From: Candidatus Enterococcus testudinis
Lineage (GTDB): Bacteria; Bacillota; Bacilli; Lactobacillales; Enterococcaceae
Assembly (NCBI RefSeq): GCF_002140915.1
Contig: NZ_NGKU01000001.1
Location: 560,967 to 601,570, forward strand
Reading direction: 5' to 3'
DNA length: 40,604 nucleotides
In this document: in pieces, positions 23,106 through 29,653 of the stretch
How positions within the stretch are numbered: position 1 is the stretch's first letter
How the letters are laid out: every line of letters begins with the position of its first letter
Position numbers and translations under genes: made by a program
The notes under the pieces: generated by a model
What the model was told of the DNA's origin: nothing
The model's database searches: none
The model's input: the letters and a program-made list of their open reading frames with translations, nothing else

Positions 23106-23161
23106 ATTTGTCCAAAAAACTAGTTTCGGTTATTCTGGGGTAAATGTGAATGGAGGCGCCT

Positions 23162-24646
23162 ATGAGAGAACTGCAAATCAATTTTATCTTAAACAAAACA
23201 ACTGTCCGATGGTTTCAACTTTTAAATGATTTTGAACGTGAGCGTACGTGCTCATTGACGGCTTTTGCAGCAAAATTACATGTGACCCAGCGAACGATCA
23301 GTTCGGATATCAAGGGGATCAAAGAACATTTTGGAGATAGTATACAGTTGACGCAGGTTGCTTATGGCTATTATTTTACAGAGAAGGCGCCAATGGATTA
23401 TTTGGAAAAAAAGCGCCAGTTAGTGTCAGAAGAAGGATTATATCAATTGATGGAAGGAATTTTTCATGGAGAGTTACATCCGATTGAAGAATGGGCTTAT
23501 CGCTTGCATGTATCGGAAAGTACGTTACGCAGATACTTGCAAGGAGTGGCACCGATACTAAAGAACTACGGATTGACTATTGGTTATAGCCCTGTCAACA
23601 TGAAAGGGAATGAGACCAATATTCGCAAATTTTTCCAAGATTTTTATTATGAGGCAGATGTCACACCCCATACACTGCTTCCACCGAAGGAATTGGTGGA
23701 TATGGTGATGGTCGATATGGATGTTTCGCCAGCCAAAATAAGGAATAGTGATATTCCGCCAACTGATTTTTTTTATGCCCTGTTCATTATTATTGAAAGG
23801 TGTCGGGAGAAGAATTATGTCACTGTTCCGGATCGGTTTGCGTATCTTATTAGAAATATTTCCGGATTTACCTATTACAATCTTTTGAAGGAAAGAATCA
23901 TTGAAGAGTACGGTGTTGAAATTCCTGAAAAAGAATTTATTTGGCTTTATCTGCTGACGGTCACGAAGAGAACTTTGACTGAACCATTGCTGGAGAAGGA
24001 TTTTATCGAAACTTACTCATTTTGGCCGGAATTTAGGCAGATCAGTCAGGCTTATACAGCAACATGGTCATCCAGTTTCAAACAAACGCAAGACATTGAA
24101 TGTCTGATTCATTCGTTTTTTGTTGCAAAAAAAATTGCTGATGAAACTGCACCTGCTTTAAATGGTGTGCAAGCAGAAATCAGAGAGTTGGCGCAAGAAA
24201 GTCCTCAGTTCAAACAAAATTTGTCTTTTTTGAATCAGCAGCAAAACATTCTTGGATACAGTCCATTGTATCTGGAGGATATCAGCGCTTCCTTGACGCT
24301 GTATCAAGAGGCAATCAGAGAGTATTATGATCGACCTATTCAGCGTATTGCTGTGGTGCTTGAAGGAAACTTGCAAATATGCCAATCGATTCGCGCGCGT
24401 TTTTTGCGGTACGTCGGAAATGACATGCAAGTATATTTTCCACGAATCAATGAAGTGACAACCGGTTATTTGGCATTGCAGCAGATTGATTTGGTGGTAA
24501 CCAATTACAGCGAGTATCTAACGGACTTCATTTTGGTAACAGACTATCTTTTGCTAAAAGCGATTCCCGATAGATTTGATTGGATGCGGGTAATTCAAAA
24601 AATCAATCCGCAGCTAGGTGAAGCAATCCAGATAACAGAACAATAG
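23162..24646 (+). CDS. Mga-like transcriptional regulator of the WxL locus
   Basis: A regulator of about 494 residues. Two N-terminal helix-turn-helix units are visible: AKLHVTQRTISSDIKGIKEHF (near residue 35-55) and YRLHVSESTLRRYL (near 120-135). They match the HTH_11/HTH_Mga pair. The middle is PRD_Mga-like and the C-terminus resembles a PTS EIIB-like domain (RIAVVLEGNLQICQSIRARF). Such regulators commonly adjoin enterococcal WxL gene clusters. I choose ATG 23162, served by GGAGG at 23152-23156; ATG 23150 overlaps that site. It is transcribed toward the WxL genes but separated by a terminator, so it probably activates their own promoter. Confidence 0.82.
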   Translation: MRELQINFILNKTTVRWFQLLNDFERERTCSLTAFAAKLHVTQRTISSDIKGIKEHFGDSIQLTQVAYGYYFTEKAPMDYLEKKRQLVSEEGLYQLMEGIFHGELHPIEEWAYRLHVSESTLRRYLQGVAPILKNYGLTIGYSPVNMKGNETNIRKFFQDFYYEADVTPHTLLPPKELVDMVMVDMDVSPAKIRNSDIPPTDFFYALFIIIERCREKNYVTVPDRFAYLIRNISGFTYYNLLKERIIEEYGVEIPEKEFIWLYLLTVTKRTLTEPLLEKDFIETYSFWPEFRQISQAYTATWSSSFKQTQDIECLIHSFFVAKKIADETAPALNGVQAEIRELAQESPQFKQNLSFLNQQQNILGYSPLYLEDISASLTLYQEAIREYYDRPIQRIAVVLEGNLQICQSIRARFLRYVGNDMQVYFPRINEVTTGYLALQQIDLVVTNYSEYLTDFILVTDYLLLKAIPDRFDWMRVIQKINPQLGEAIQITEQ

Positions 24647-24908: not shown

Positions 24909-26048
24909 ATGAAGACAAAGCACAAGATATGGCTCTGTTTTATGGTCGCTTTGACAATGTTTATGGCTACTTCCAAGGAATTGACAGGGACAGAAAGACG
25001 AAGTACGGCAACAAGGGGTAGCATCGGGTTTACTGGTCACTATGATCCAATCGGGGCGCCTGATCCGACACCATCTGAAAGCATCGGGAAACCACCGGTT
25101 GAAGATGTGAATAATCCCTTTATCAATTTGCCACAAACCAATAGCATCACAAATAGGTACTTGAGGAATTTCGGTATCGCGATCATCGCACTCTGTGTAG
25201 TGCGATTTAAACATTTAAAAAAATTAAATTATACGAAAGCAGGAAAGAACTTGAAACTTATTAAATTAGCAACAGTGACCGCACTCACATCATCGATTTT
25301 AGCCGGCGGAAGTAAAATTGTATCAGCAGAAGTAGTTCATAACGTTGATACGGAAGGAAATGTTCAATTTGCACCAGGTGGAGGCGAGGATGAAGAAGTA
25401 GAGGTTTTACCGCCGGTTGTAGATCCTGATGCTCCAGAAGTAGATATTCAACCAGAAGATCCTAATATGACAGGACCTTTGTCAATTGTGAAAGCCGTGA
25501 CTATGAATTTTGGTTCGCAAGTTATCTCAAATCAGTTGCAATACTATAGTATGGTAGCTGAAATGCAGCAACTTGAAGGCACGACCGGAGACGAAAACAA
25601 AGTACCTTATGTGTCATTTGCGCAAGTACAGGATGTCCGTGGAACGAACGGAGGTTGGAATCTGCAAGTAAGTCTATCTGATTTTACTTCAGGCACACAT
25701 AACGGCGTGTTAACCGGTGCAGAGATAGAATTTGTGGAGGGCCGTGTAAGTCATGTGACCAATAATCCGGACAATACCCCGGCAGGTCACCAAAATGGCT
25801 TGAAATTGATACCTAATGTAGGTGCGGTATCTGTAATGACGGCCGACAGAGGCCAAGGTGCAGGATCATCTTCTATAGTCTGGGGAAATCAACGTGATTT
25901 GAATCAACAATTTGCGGATGCAGAGAAAGAAGTCGTAGAAAACCATGCAATTCGTTTGTTTGTACCCGGTTCAACTGCAAAAGATGCGGCAACGTATACG
26001 TCAACGTTGAGTTGGGAATTGACATCAACACCTGGTGCTGACGCTTAA
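24909..26048 (+). CDS. Fused LPXTG-like small surface protein and WxL protein
   Basis: One 379-codon frame holds two surface proteins. Residues 1-105 look like a CscD-type small sortase substrate: signal peptide (1-about 20), short extracellular part, LPQTN (74-78), hydrophobic FGIAIIALCVV (88-98) and a basic RFKHLKK tail. From residue 115 a second signal peptide begins (KLIKLATVTALTSSILAGG, cleavage near SA-E at 140/141), then a Pro/Glu linker and a WxL domain with both motifs, WNL (Trp250) and WEL (Trp369). AAGGAGG serves the ATG. Losing one A from the A7 run at 25217-25223 would end the first protein with a stop right after HLKN. Whether one chain or two is made is the open question. Confidence 0.82.
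   Translation: MKTKHKIWLCFMVALTMFMATSKELTGTERRSTATRGSIGFTGHYDPIGAPDPTPSESIGKPPVEDVNNPFINLPQTNSITNRYLRNFGIAIIALCVVRFKHLKKLNYTKAGKNLKLIKLATVTALTSSILAGGSKIVSAEVVHNVDTEGNVQFAPGGGEDEEVEVLPPVVDPDAPEVDIQPEDPNMTGPLSIVKAVTMNFGSQVISNQLQYYSMVAEMQQLEGTTGDENKVPYVSFAQVQDVRGTNGGWNLQVSLSDFTSGTHNGVLTGAEIEFVEGRVSHVTNNPDNTPAGHQNGLKLIPNVGAVSVMTADRGQGAGSSSIVWGNQRDLNQQFADAEKEVVENHAIRLFVPGSTAKDAATYTSTLSWELTSTPGADA
25251..26048 (+). CDS. WxL-domain cell-surface protein from an internal TTG start (alternative reading)
   Basis: This TTG lies in phase in the fused frame and has AGGAAAG (25241-25247) upstream at a normal distance. From it the protein is 265 residues, a usual WxL length, starts with a clean signal peptide (KLIKLATV and following) and ends in the WEL motif and STPG. 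WxL domains bind peptidoglycan non-covalently. This is probably how a separate WxL protein is made, or was made before the two genes became fused. It is listed in addition to the full frame, not as a second locus. Confidence 0.5.
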   Translation: MKLIKLATVTALTSSILAGGSKIVSAEVVHNVDTEGNVQFAPGGGEDEEVEVLPPVVDPDAPEVDIQPEDPNMTGPLSIVKAVTMNFGSQVISNQLQYYSMVAEMQQLEGTTGDENKVPYVSFAQVQDVRGTNGGWNLQVSLSDFTSGTHNGVLTGAEIEFVEGRVSHVTNNPDNTPAGHQNGLKLIPNVGAVSVMTADRGQGAGSSSIVWGNQRDLNQQFADAEKEVVENHAIRLFVPGSTAKDAATYTSTLSWELTSTPGADA

Positions 26049-26130: not shown

Positions 26131-27189
26131 TTGTTAAAAAGACATCTATCTATAAATAAATTGAGTATTGTCACCAAAATGGTTTTTGCTATTGCTATGG
26201 TGCTCTTTATCATGCAGCCAAAAGTTGGTTTGGCGGAAGAGAGTGGATTGGATTTTTATGTAACACCAGTGTTTTCAGATCATCAAGTAGAAGGGTCGCT
26301 GAGTTATTTTGATTTGAATATGCCTGCCGGTGAAAGTGACATGTTGCAATTGACTATCCAAAATGCAAGTAGTGAACCAATCCAGGTGCAAGTTACACCC
26401 CATACGGCTTATACCAATGTGCATGGTGTGGTGGAATATGGTAAGGATGCAGAAGAACCAGATACTAAATTAACTTATGCATTGGATACCTTGATTGAAA
26501 CATCCGAAGTCATTACATTAGCCGGAAATGAAACCAAAGAGATTGAAGTACCTATACATATGCCTGAAGCGTCATTTGAAGGATTTTTAGCCGGTGGCTT
26601 GCGTATTGCTGAAGTGAAAGAAGAAGCAGAAGACGAGGTGAAAGATGTTGAAGGGGTTGCTATCAACAATGAATTTGCCTATGTCATAGGTGTAGTTGTC
26701 AGCAATTCCCGAGATTCGATTCAGCCAGATCTTGAACTTCTGGACGTCTTTGCAGATCAATTGAACTACCGAAACGTCATCAGTGCAACGATTCAAAACT
26801 ATACACCAACCTTTGTGAATCGATTGGCTGTAGATGCTACTATACAAAAAGTTGGGGATACAGAGATTTTATATGCAGCAAGTGCGGAACAGATGCAAAT
26901 GGCTCCGAACTCCCATTTTCGTTTCCCCATTTCATTGGAAGGCGATCGTTTTCAAAGTGGAGACTACCTTTTGACACTTAATGCAACTTCTGGTGAGGAA
27001 GAATGGTCGTGGGAACAAACATTCACGATCGAAGCGGATGAAGCCCGTGGATTGAATCGGCAAGATGTAACGATTGATTCTAGTTTGAATTGGTGGATGG
27101 TCGGGTCGATCATTTTGTTTACGCTCTTAATGCTTCTTTCTGTGTACTTGCTTATCAAGAATAGACAAGAAAAACAAGTTAAGGAATGA
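26131..27189 (+). CDS. DUF916/DUF3324 WxL-associated membrane protein
   Basis: A 352-residue exported protein of the WxL-locus type that pairs a DUF916 domain (peptidoglycan-binding side) with a DUF3324 domain (host-binding side), as in CscB. N-terminal signal peptide to about residue 36 (...QPKVGLAEESG), DUF916 start LDFYVTPVF, then DUF3324 region, and a C-terminal membrane segment WWMVGSIILFTLLMLLSVYL followed by a basic tail. The start is TTG at 26131 with AAAGGGG before it. It probably anchors the WxL proteins to the envelope. It follows an internal terminator and precedes the large WxL adhesin by 7 bases. Confidence 0.88.
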   Translation: MLKRHLSINKLSIVTKMVFAIAMVLFIMQPKVGLAEESGLDFYVTPVFSDHQVEGSLSYFDLNMPAGESDMLQLTIQNASSEPIQVQVTPHTAYTNVHGVVEYGKDAEEPDTKLTYALDTLIETSEVITLAGNETKEIEVPIHMPEASFEGFLAGGLRIAEVKEEAEDEVKDVEGVAINNEFAYVIGVVVSNSRDSIQPDLELLDVFADQLNYRNVISATIQNYTPTFVNRLAVDATIQKVGDTEILYAASAEQMQMAPNSHFRFPISLEGDRFQSGDYLLTLNATSGEEEWSWEQTFTIEADEARGLNRQDVTIDSSLNWWMVGSIILFTLLMLLSVYLLIKNRQEKQVKE

Positions 27190-27196
27190 GTACGAG

Positions 27197-29653
27197 ATGA
27201 ACGTATATAAAAAGATAGCAGTGTGGGGACTCATCTTTACCATAATGTCATCATTGATCACTACTTTTGGTTTAAATTCTGTGGAAGCAAGCCAAGTTGT
27301 TGACGAAGCAACGATTGAAAAACTACGTGTACATCAGCCGGATTATTTTGTTAAACCTATGGCTGCAACATCTGACACTACCCCCACGGAAGAAATCCAA
27401 GCATTTTCTTTTGTAAATAAAACCTATCAAACAACGATCAATCAACTTGTTTTATTACAGTTTACGAGTAAGTTAGCCGTGGATGAAGTGTTAGTTCGCA
27501 TTCCTGCAAGTGGACAAGTATACACTTCGTATTTTTCAAAAGGTGAAACCTTTCAGCACGCACATGGAGAGTATTGGACACTGCGCACACAAGGTAAGCG
27601 AACAGCCTTCGAACTGCCAGTTTTTTTTGAAGCAGCTGGACAGTACTTCGTTACTATTGGTCATGATGCGGACTTCTTTTACTTGGAAGTTGAACAGAAT
27701 CGTTCTATTTTGTTTAAAGAGAGCGAAAATATAGCAGAAGTTGATGAGAGAAGCGTGAAAGAAGCACAACATGAAGGAAACATGGACTTCGTTTATGCCA
27801 TAGAGAGTAATTTGGATATTTCGCAAGATTTGCTTGATATTGAAAATGAACGTATCTTAGAAGAGACTAGAGATCCCCATGATCGTTCAATAAGTAATGT
27901 AGATAATTGGCCACAATTCCTTGCTGCTTGGAATAGTGATGCTACGTCGATTATTAATCTAACAAGCGCTATTACTGATGGACCTGATACACTTAATGTG
28001 CGTGATCAAAGTATAAGAATTGAATTTGACAGACATCATCTGAATTTATTTTACGAGAGTAATGTGCTAAGCGTGACAGGAGCAGCTGATTTAGTGTTGA
28101 GTAGTGTTCCTGACAATAGCGCAAGACTTATCGGCCATTTGAGACCCCCTACTCGAATGAATCCTGCGATTATTCAAAGTGGTAGTGGTCGGGTATTGAT
28201 TACGAATCAGGCTGTGATAGAAACAGGAGCATCTCTTCAAAACCTTTCCATAGAAAGAGGAAGCACCTTAAACAATTCCCAAAGTTACATTGAAGTCAGT
28301 CCTAATGGATGTATAGAAATCAGTAATTCAGATAACCGTGCCACTGGGATTTTTGATACTACTATAAAAATGCCGGGTAATGCATATGTAAATATAACAG
28401 GTAGTCAAGCACTCATAAATAGAGATTTATGGGATTTTGTAGATTTGCAACTTAATGGACCTCAAGCAAGAAATATTGTTTCAGCTATCACAACGCCAGA
28501 TGATTTTGAAGTGGTGTATGCTAATTCGGGATTAGGTAATCCTAGTTCAAAACAAAGTATCGGTATAAGCGCATTTAACGGTAATGCGCCGCCGCGTCCT
28601 TTATATACCCTTTCAATAGCGCCTAATCCTAGCCAAGGTGGAAATCCAACGCCGCGATTAGGCCCCATCCGACAAGGATCTACAACAACAATCGCGGCAA
28701 ATCCAAACGAAGGGTATAGGTTTGTTCATTGGGAAATCATTTCAGGAAGGGGCTCAAGAATAGCAGACAAATCTGCCGAGACAACAACTTTTACTATGGG
28801 ATCTGAACGTACAGAAGTCCGTGCTGTATATGAAGAAGTTCAATTTGGTGAAGTCCATGTCCGACATGTAGATAAAGAAGGGGGGAACATTGTATCACCA
28901 GAAGTGATTACAGGCGTGATTGGAGATAGTTATGAGACAGCTGCCAAAGAGATACCGAACTATTATTTGTTTGAGACGCCTGTAAATGCGAAAGGCTTCT
29001 TTGAAACAGATCCAATTGAGGTAATCTATGTCTATGGAAAAAATCCAGTTGCACCGGTTGATCCACTCGATCCTGACGTTGAAGTCAATCCAGAAAACAA
29101 ACCAGATTTACCCCCTCATCAAGATACGTTAAGCATAGATTTTGTGTCCTCATTTAACTTTGGCCAGCAAGCCATTTCGGCAAAAGAGCGTACTTATTAT
29201 GCAAAGCCACAACGCCTATTGAATGCAGATGGGTCAATCAATGAAATTGAAGAAAGACCAAATTATATCCAAATCAGTGATCGCCGAATACCACACTTAC
29301 GACATGGCTGGCAACTTGCTGTGACCCAAAAAGAGCAATTCAAAACTCAAAATGGGTTTGAACTTATCGGTGCGCGTATTCACTTAGCCAACCAAGAATT
29401 AGTGTCTAGTCATTGGAATAATCCCCCATCCATACAGGTACCTGACTCTTTCGAACTAATTCCAGGACATAAGCGAACTTTACTATTGGCGGACGAGAAT
29501 CAAGGAGAAGGCACTTGGATTTACCGTTTCGGAGATCCTGACACATTAAACGAAAGTGTAGGCTTAACTGTTCCTGCAACTGCCGCAGTTGAAGCAGATC
29601 ATTATACGACAACCTTTGAATGGGAATTAAGTTCAGTTCCAGGTAATTATTAA
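27197..29653 (+). CDS. Large multidomain WxL surface adhesin
   Basis: An 818-residue secreted protein. Signal peptide 1-31 (cleavage near VEA-S). Residues about 235-450 fit a pectate-lyase-like adhesive domain (DNWPQFLAAWNSD start, then many short beta turns). About 468-546 resemble a divergent InlB B-repeat (YTLSIAPNPSQGG to AVYEE). About 550-614 is a MucBP domain (GEVHVRHVDKEGG to VIYVYG). The C-terminal WxL domain has WQL (705-707) and WEL (809-811). The protein should attach to peptidoglycan through the WxL domain and present a mucin-binding or glycan-binding stalk. No LPXTG motif. AAGGA upstream is weak and 11 bases away. Confidence 0.88.
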   Translation: MNVYKKIAVWGLIFTIMSSLITTFGLNSVEASQVVDEATIEKLRVHQPDYFVKPMAATSDTTPTEEIQAFSFVNKTYQTTINQLVLLQFTSKLAVDEVLVRIPASGQVYTSYFSKGETFQHAHGEYWTLRTQGKRTAFELPVFFEAAGQYFVTIGHDADFFYLEVEQNRSILFKESENIAEVDERSVKEAQHEGNMDFVYAIESNLDISQDLLDIENERILEETRDPHDRSISNVDNWPQFLAAWNSDATSIINLTSAITDGPDTLNVRDQSIRIEFDRHHLNLFYESNVLSVTGAADLVLSSVPDNSARLIGHLRPPTRMNPAIIQSGSGRVLITNQAVIETGASLQNLSIERGSTLNNSQSYIEVSPNGCIEISNSDNRATGIFDTTIKMPGNAYVNITGSQALINRDLWDFVDLQLNGPQARNIVSAITTPDDFEVVYANSGLGNPSSKQSIGISAFNGNAPPRPLYTLSIAPNPSQGGNPTPRLGPIRQGSTTTIAANPNEGYRFVHWEIISGRGSRIADKSAETTTFTMGSERTEVRAVYEEVQFGEVHVRHVDKEGGNIVSPEVITGVIGDSYETAAKEIPNYYLFETPVNAKGFFETDPIEVIYVYGKNPVAPVDPLDPDVEVNPENKPDLPPHQDTLSIDFVSSFNFGQQAISAKERTYYAKPQRLLNADGSINEIEERPNYIQISDRRIPHLRHGWQLAVTQKEQFKTQNGFELIGARIHLANQELVSSHWNNPPSIQVPDSFELIPGHKRTLLLADENQGEGTWIYRFGDPDTLNESVGLTVPATAAVEADHYTTTFEWELSSVPGNY

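Follow-up and report, generated by a model that had tools for sequence, protein, structure and literature searches.

The closest described counterparts of the locus reported here are the csc gene clusters and the elr operon of Enterococcus faecalis. In the available passages of the study that described the csc clusters (cscA-D), CscD proteins are LPXTG proteins of 90-140 residues and CscB consists mostly of a WxL domain (PMC1534035). The methods given there state that some coding sequences were corrected for frame shifts and start codons (PMC1534035). The elr operon, as outlined in the passages at hand, begins with ElrA and encodes a small LPXTG protein (ElrB), then the WxL proteins ElrC and ElrD, together with the DUF916 protein ElrE and a positive regulator (PMC4522977). 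A literature search covering titles, openings of abstracts and cited passages found no description of a protein in which LPXTG and WxL parts are joined.

We analysed a stretch of 40,604 nucleotides from Candidatus Enterococcus testudinis (the window) that contains the same gene types side by side, all on the plus strand. Directly upstream of the frame under study is a gene for an Mga-type transcriptional regulator of the AcpB/EbpR/MafR family (23150..24646; NCBIfam NF053736, 223.8 bits against a cut-off of 130; Pfam Mga). On the other side are genes for a WxL-interacting protein of the cscA type (DUF916/DUF3324; 26131..27189; Pfam WxLIP_PGBD and WxLIP_HBD) and a large WxL protein of the cscC type with MucBP and pectate-lyase-like domains recognized by Pfam (27197..29653). 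The adjacent DUF916/WxLIP, small WxL and large WxL genes, usually accompanied by a small LPXTG gene, that mark a csc/elr cluster are thus all present, and the order of LPXTG, WxL and DUF916 parts together with a regulator resembles elr. By contrast, the LPXTG and WxL genes are separate in both printed systems, and 'fused' and 'fusion' do not occur in the retrieved text on csc clusters (PMC1534035, PMC4522977), whereas the window carries them as a single frame, 24909-26048. LPXTG, WxL, DUF916 and large-WxL clusters are also plasmid-borne in E. mundtii and E. gallinarum (L183-L190), and four of the plasmids bearing them (L183, L185, L188, L190) are typed conjugative. Elsewhere in the window's own genome an N-masked stretch lies upstream of another WxL gene (L010).

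As the original prediction held, the frame at 24909..26048 (plus strand) runs through 379 codons without a stop, both in the list of open reading frames and in the sequence, and joins a complete sortase substrate to a second signal peptide and a complete WxL domain. The first half (24909..25223) encodes a small protein of the cscD/ElrB type with a signal peptide, LPQTN, a hydrophobic segment and a basic tail. Searching the uncut 379-aa protein with the EF0750_LPXTG profile (NF053819) aligned residues 1-105 with profile positions 1-104 of 105 at 63.6 bits, above the curated cut-off of 47; the family therefore ends at a run of seven As (A7, 25217..25223). The sorting motif LPQTN is at 25128..25142, and relatives carry LPQTN, LPKTN, LPQTD or LPQLN. 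The short hydrophobic segment that follows, FGIAIIALCVVRF (25170..25208), has the lowest hydropathy among eight tails compared, with a Kyte-Doolittle 19-residue maximum of 1.33 versus 1.45-2.34 elsewhere. Neither Pfam Gram_pos_anchor nor TIGR01167 LPXTG_anchor matched the window protein at E <= 1, short of the curated cut-off. A compensated frameshift within the LPXTG half was considered and ruled out, the alignment to relatives there being gap-free by eye.

The second half (25251..26048) encodes a small WxL protein of the cscB type with its own signal peptide, after which PF13731 matches at 168.5 bits over profile positions 4-214 of 214, a full WxL domain. The elements from which the WxL protein had been proposed to restart, AGGAAAG and a TTG at 25251, are present, and the TTG aligns with the ATG of relatives. 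The ribosome-site region contains GAAAGCAGGA (25235..25244), and 20 of 35 junctions have GAAAG[T/C]AGGA ahead of the WxL start. In E. casseliflavus a TTG also stands at the position of the window's WxL start, two codons after an ATG, and in the window itself TTG is apparently the start codon of the WxL-interacting protein gene at 26131 as well. Around A7 the codons read CAT TTA AAA AAA TTA AAT TAT; the T-TTA-AAA heptamer is in phase and the loss of one base gives an immediate stop, both as predicted, and a -1 shift adds 13 residues before a stop. The two halves are linked by nine codons (25224-25250, 27 nt). This link is stop-free in 41% of base shuffles, so an open link is unremarkable given the matching phase, and the missing stop appears unusual only relative to near relatives.

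WxL relatives of the joined protein were found in all six genomes of the genus. The nearest copies examined, in E. casseliflavus NBRC 100478 (G001), G003, Enterococcus sp. RIT-PI-f (G004) and a metagenome-assembled Enterococcus (G005), are separate genes, as is a related LPXTG-WxL pair in G002. Among the matches listed for 105 genomes of the family, only the window matched both halves free of stops; G033, G034, G004 and others matched both halves in one phase but with stops between. No frame longer than 175 codons occurred in the best 150 LPXTG-family matches of the family, although joined copies can score lower than these.

For a strict junction set we required an LPXTG match of at least 25 bits, a sorting signal and a gap of -30 to 200 nt. 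Of the resulting 35 junctions similar to the window, 33 are separate (8 of them in phase) and two are joined, namely the window and the E. mundtii P6 plasmids, which agrees with the expectation that csc-type loci carry these as separate genes. The 35 include the window itself, and one of the separate junctions is a paralogue in its own genome. Because the set was gathered by similarity to the window and lacks the joins described below from G133, G120, one other genus (g13) and family f7, no frequency of joining can be derived from it. A looser survey gave 70 rows, 64 separate and six in the same frame, and the window was the one true join among the latter. With 33 of 35 similar junctions separate, the window copy is private among the near relatives examined, and the join looks recent as well. 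The boundary itself is loose. Relative to the WxL start, the LPXTG stop of the 35 junctions falls anywhere between 149 nt upstream and 14 nt downstream, and in 16 of the 33 separate junctions no stop interrupts the WxL frame back to beyond the longest A-run; placement of the stop is fluid and the boundary joins easily. In seven copies (L068, L071, L072, L128-L131) the LPXTG stop is 3 nt upstream of the WxL start and in phase with it, so that read-through of the stop alone would join the proteins.

These separate genes in near relatives, the position of the join at a homopolymer and the immediate stop that one base fewer would produce are all as expected if A7 contains a one-base sequencing or assembly error and the strain really has two separate genes. 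We therefore looked at how the assembly behaves at comparable sites, in a sample of 220 kb of the window's genome (8.4 kb masked; gene ends poorly tested). Eighty orthologues from G004, covering 85.8 kb, had no one-base frameshift, one gene lying in two frames across an 850-nt gap, and two further orthologues each from G005 and G001 were likewise free of them. The reverse control turned up one split gene in G004 among 79. Moreover, 47 runs of at least seven As or Ts sit in unbroken orthologous stretches. The assembly is thus not generally error-prone at A or T runs of this length; the A7 site itself is unproven. A second genome of the species was not found by an exact-peptide scan of genome contigs, a search for the junction pattern in viral contigs or a plasmid DNA search. 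An error at A7 is possible, and we regard it as quite unlikely.

The A7 run had also raised the possibility of slippage-controlled output, in which the ribosome or RNA polymerase slips at the A-run and yields free LPXTG protein and joined chain at a set ratio. The in-phase T-TTA-AAA with A7 is what such a mechanism would use, a slip in either direction at A7 soon ends the LPXTG protein, and the run of 12 As in E. mundtii P6 is of a length where slippage is credible. The broader pattern points the other way. A-runs in the tails of the 35 junctions are not in excess, with a mean of 5.9 where lysine codon use predicts 6.2. No fold was detected downstream of A7 (z +1.19; 186 of 200 shuffles give a fold that is at least as good). 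Published passages on the subject report selection against slippage at runs of nine nucleotides in many genomes, with shorter runs possible in some bacteria (PMC1088944), and the window's run is shorter than nine. No conserved slippery run was found in the window's relatives, the 35 junctions or the 13 joined copies known to us, seven of which lack an A-run of at least seven (6/13 have one); lengths are 12 in E. mundtii P6, 8 in G133, 5 in G120, 8 in G311 and 2 in G264. We consider controlled slippage highly improbable; an A-run is one way in which a join can arise rather than its hallmark. The original prediction had also looked to the run in relatives, taking six As in all of them as a sign of two normal genes. 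Because the run is no conserved element there, that comparison is inapplicable as written.

Besides the window, 12 joined copies were found: one in E. mundtii P6, one each in G133 and G120, seven in g13, a genus of Enterococcaceae, and two in family f7 (G311, G264). The 13 copies span three families. The P6 copy, on pP6-3 and pP6-4 (L181, L182; identical over the compared stretch), occupies a joined frame at 1426-2586 that includes the A12 run. In the incomplete gene table of these plasmids an LPXTG gene is missing and the WxL gene is annotated as beginning at its own ATG. The G133 copy (387 codons) came from a sample of 395 genomes of the order, over which the G120 protein was then searched, scoring at most five candidates per genome. 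Ten stop-free rows began before query residue 70, and all ten were examined and proved joined, with LPXTG, membrane segment, second export signal and WxL in one frame: G120, G079 (two), G073, G081, G074, G089, G090, G311 and G264. The g13 copies among them (L242-L246, L248, L249) come from six genomes, so at least six of the 20 g13 genomes in this search carry one. Longer frames starting beyond query residue 70, in G214, G006 and G002, were examined and are not joined. The joined state was judged from translated DNA; tabulated frame lengths are not always stop-to-stop (G004; G120:C1:1453857, 243 vs 486).

In the joined copies the distance from motif to WxL start is 27-44 residues, and three of four other joined proteins scanned scored above the TIGR01167 LPXTG_anchor cut-off. 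The motif in G089 and G090 is FPKTG and their WxL start would be GTG. By eye, a start codon for WxL with a sequence resembling a ribosome site ahead of it is retained in 12 of the 13 copies, which suggests that the WxL protein can probably also be made alone. G264 is the weak one and, being without a well-placed ribosome site before the WxL part, may depend on the joined chain. This copy (L247, reverse strand, 1380-2462) is also the most compact join, with 27 residues from LPHTG to the WxL start, and its basic tail doubles as the beginning of the next export signal.

The near relatives examined for the window lack the joined frame; in g13 it has been retained across species. There, two groups of joined copies align over their full length, the joint included, with pairwise dS of 0.14-1.7 and one value saturated. 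Across five pairs with finite dS (0.20-1.17; the sixth pair is saturated), dN/dS was 0.29-0.49 for the LPXTG half; the WxL half of these pairs gave 0.07-0.29. On these values the joined frame was inherited through considerable divergence with a constrained LPXTG half. In a simple simulation, five free tail codons stayed stop-free over three lineages in 7-17% of runs, so the persistence in g13 is suggestive but weak evidence of selection and no proof of it; the ribosome site itself forces open codons, which weakens it further. Outside g13 the joins look sporadic, to judge from their relatives: in G133 an orthologue of the G120 copy is separate, as is a relative of the G311 copy in G130, and the nearest paralogue of the G133 joined copy is two overlapping genes.

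The private character of the window copy fits a recent accident in which loss of the stop left WxL still to be made from its own start but misrouted the joined chain, leaving this strain effectively without the LPXTG protein. Its membrane segment, the weakest of the eight, and the missing anchor-domain match fit as well, and LPXTG genes in such clusters do break, as in the two pieces listed on E. mundtii pPe16101. These are two short pieces at 43378-43730 of NZ_CP025472.1 (L180, L113); on pPe10301 the gene is full-length and adjoins the same WxL accession. Against loss of function, g13 keeps joined forms across species with the LPXTG half under constraint. We think such an accident unlikely.

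The reading that we favour, by a modest degree of confidence, is that the window holds a joined form of the known csc gene pair, one that is recurrent, tolerated and conserved in one genus, with processing into two products plausible. No stop closes the LPXTG gene ahead of the WxL gene, which is in phase, and ribosomes starting at 24909 would make a 379-residue chain; WxL would also be initiated alone from its own ribosome site and the TTG at 25251. Given the order of signals in the chain (export signal, sorting motif, membrane segment, short basic tail, second export signal, WxL domain), the out-in-out insertion originally proposed is plausible, as are two products, although for the window this topology is less certain because its hydrophobic stretch is the weakest of eight and lacks an anchor-domain match. 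Sortase would then cut at the motif and signal peptidase before the WxL domain, releasing the same two surface products. Joining is on this view tolerated; it recurs in several lineages and has been retained across the species of one Enterococcaceae genus.

A more far-reaching reading, tentative and in our view somewhat unlikely, is a surface polyprotein used in several Lactobacillales lineages. Sortase and signal peptidase would cleave one membrane-spanning precursor, giving an anchored peptide and a WxL protein at a fixed ratio; the arrangement would be fixed in g13, G264 may depend on it and window-like copies would be new entries. The polyprotein proposed originally, taken as a conserved joined form, becomes more credible with the recurrence of joined frames in three families and their persistence across the species of one genus, but the window's own copy does not share that conservation among its relatives. 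If the chains are cut as predicted, one bacterial precursor would yield two secreted proteins with separate fates, and sortase must accept, in csc proteins, a sorting signal followed by a second exported domain. This can be put to the test in g13, whose genomes hold related genes in both joined and separate form. Joined loci may, in addition, be misreported by gene callers, for example on the P6 plasmids.

Among the systems compared, the g13 copies are similar to the window in having sorting motif, membrane segment, short basic stretch, second export signal and WxL in one frame. They differ in belonging to another WxL subfamily, in a joint that reads YxYxxGGR[KT]MKLW or KGGKKVK and in being kept across species. 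The copies on pP6-3/pP6-4 and in G133, G120, G311 and G264 share with the window one stop-free frame across both halves; they are sporadic, and that of G264 is without a well-placed ribosome site before WxL. Outside the WxL proteins, the available passages on the IgA1 protease and ZmpB, which have an N-terminal LPXTG, indicate that a large exported part can follow a sorting motif (PMC7939560, PMC9637739). Like the window protein, these are single chains in which the motif comes close to the N-terminus and is followed by a large exported part; unlike it, as described there, they have unrelated protease domains and form an established single-gene family (PMC7939560, PMC9637739).
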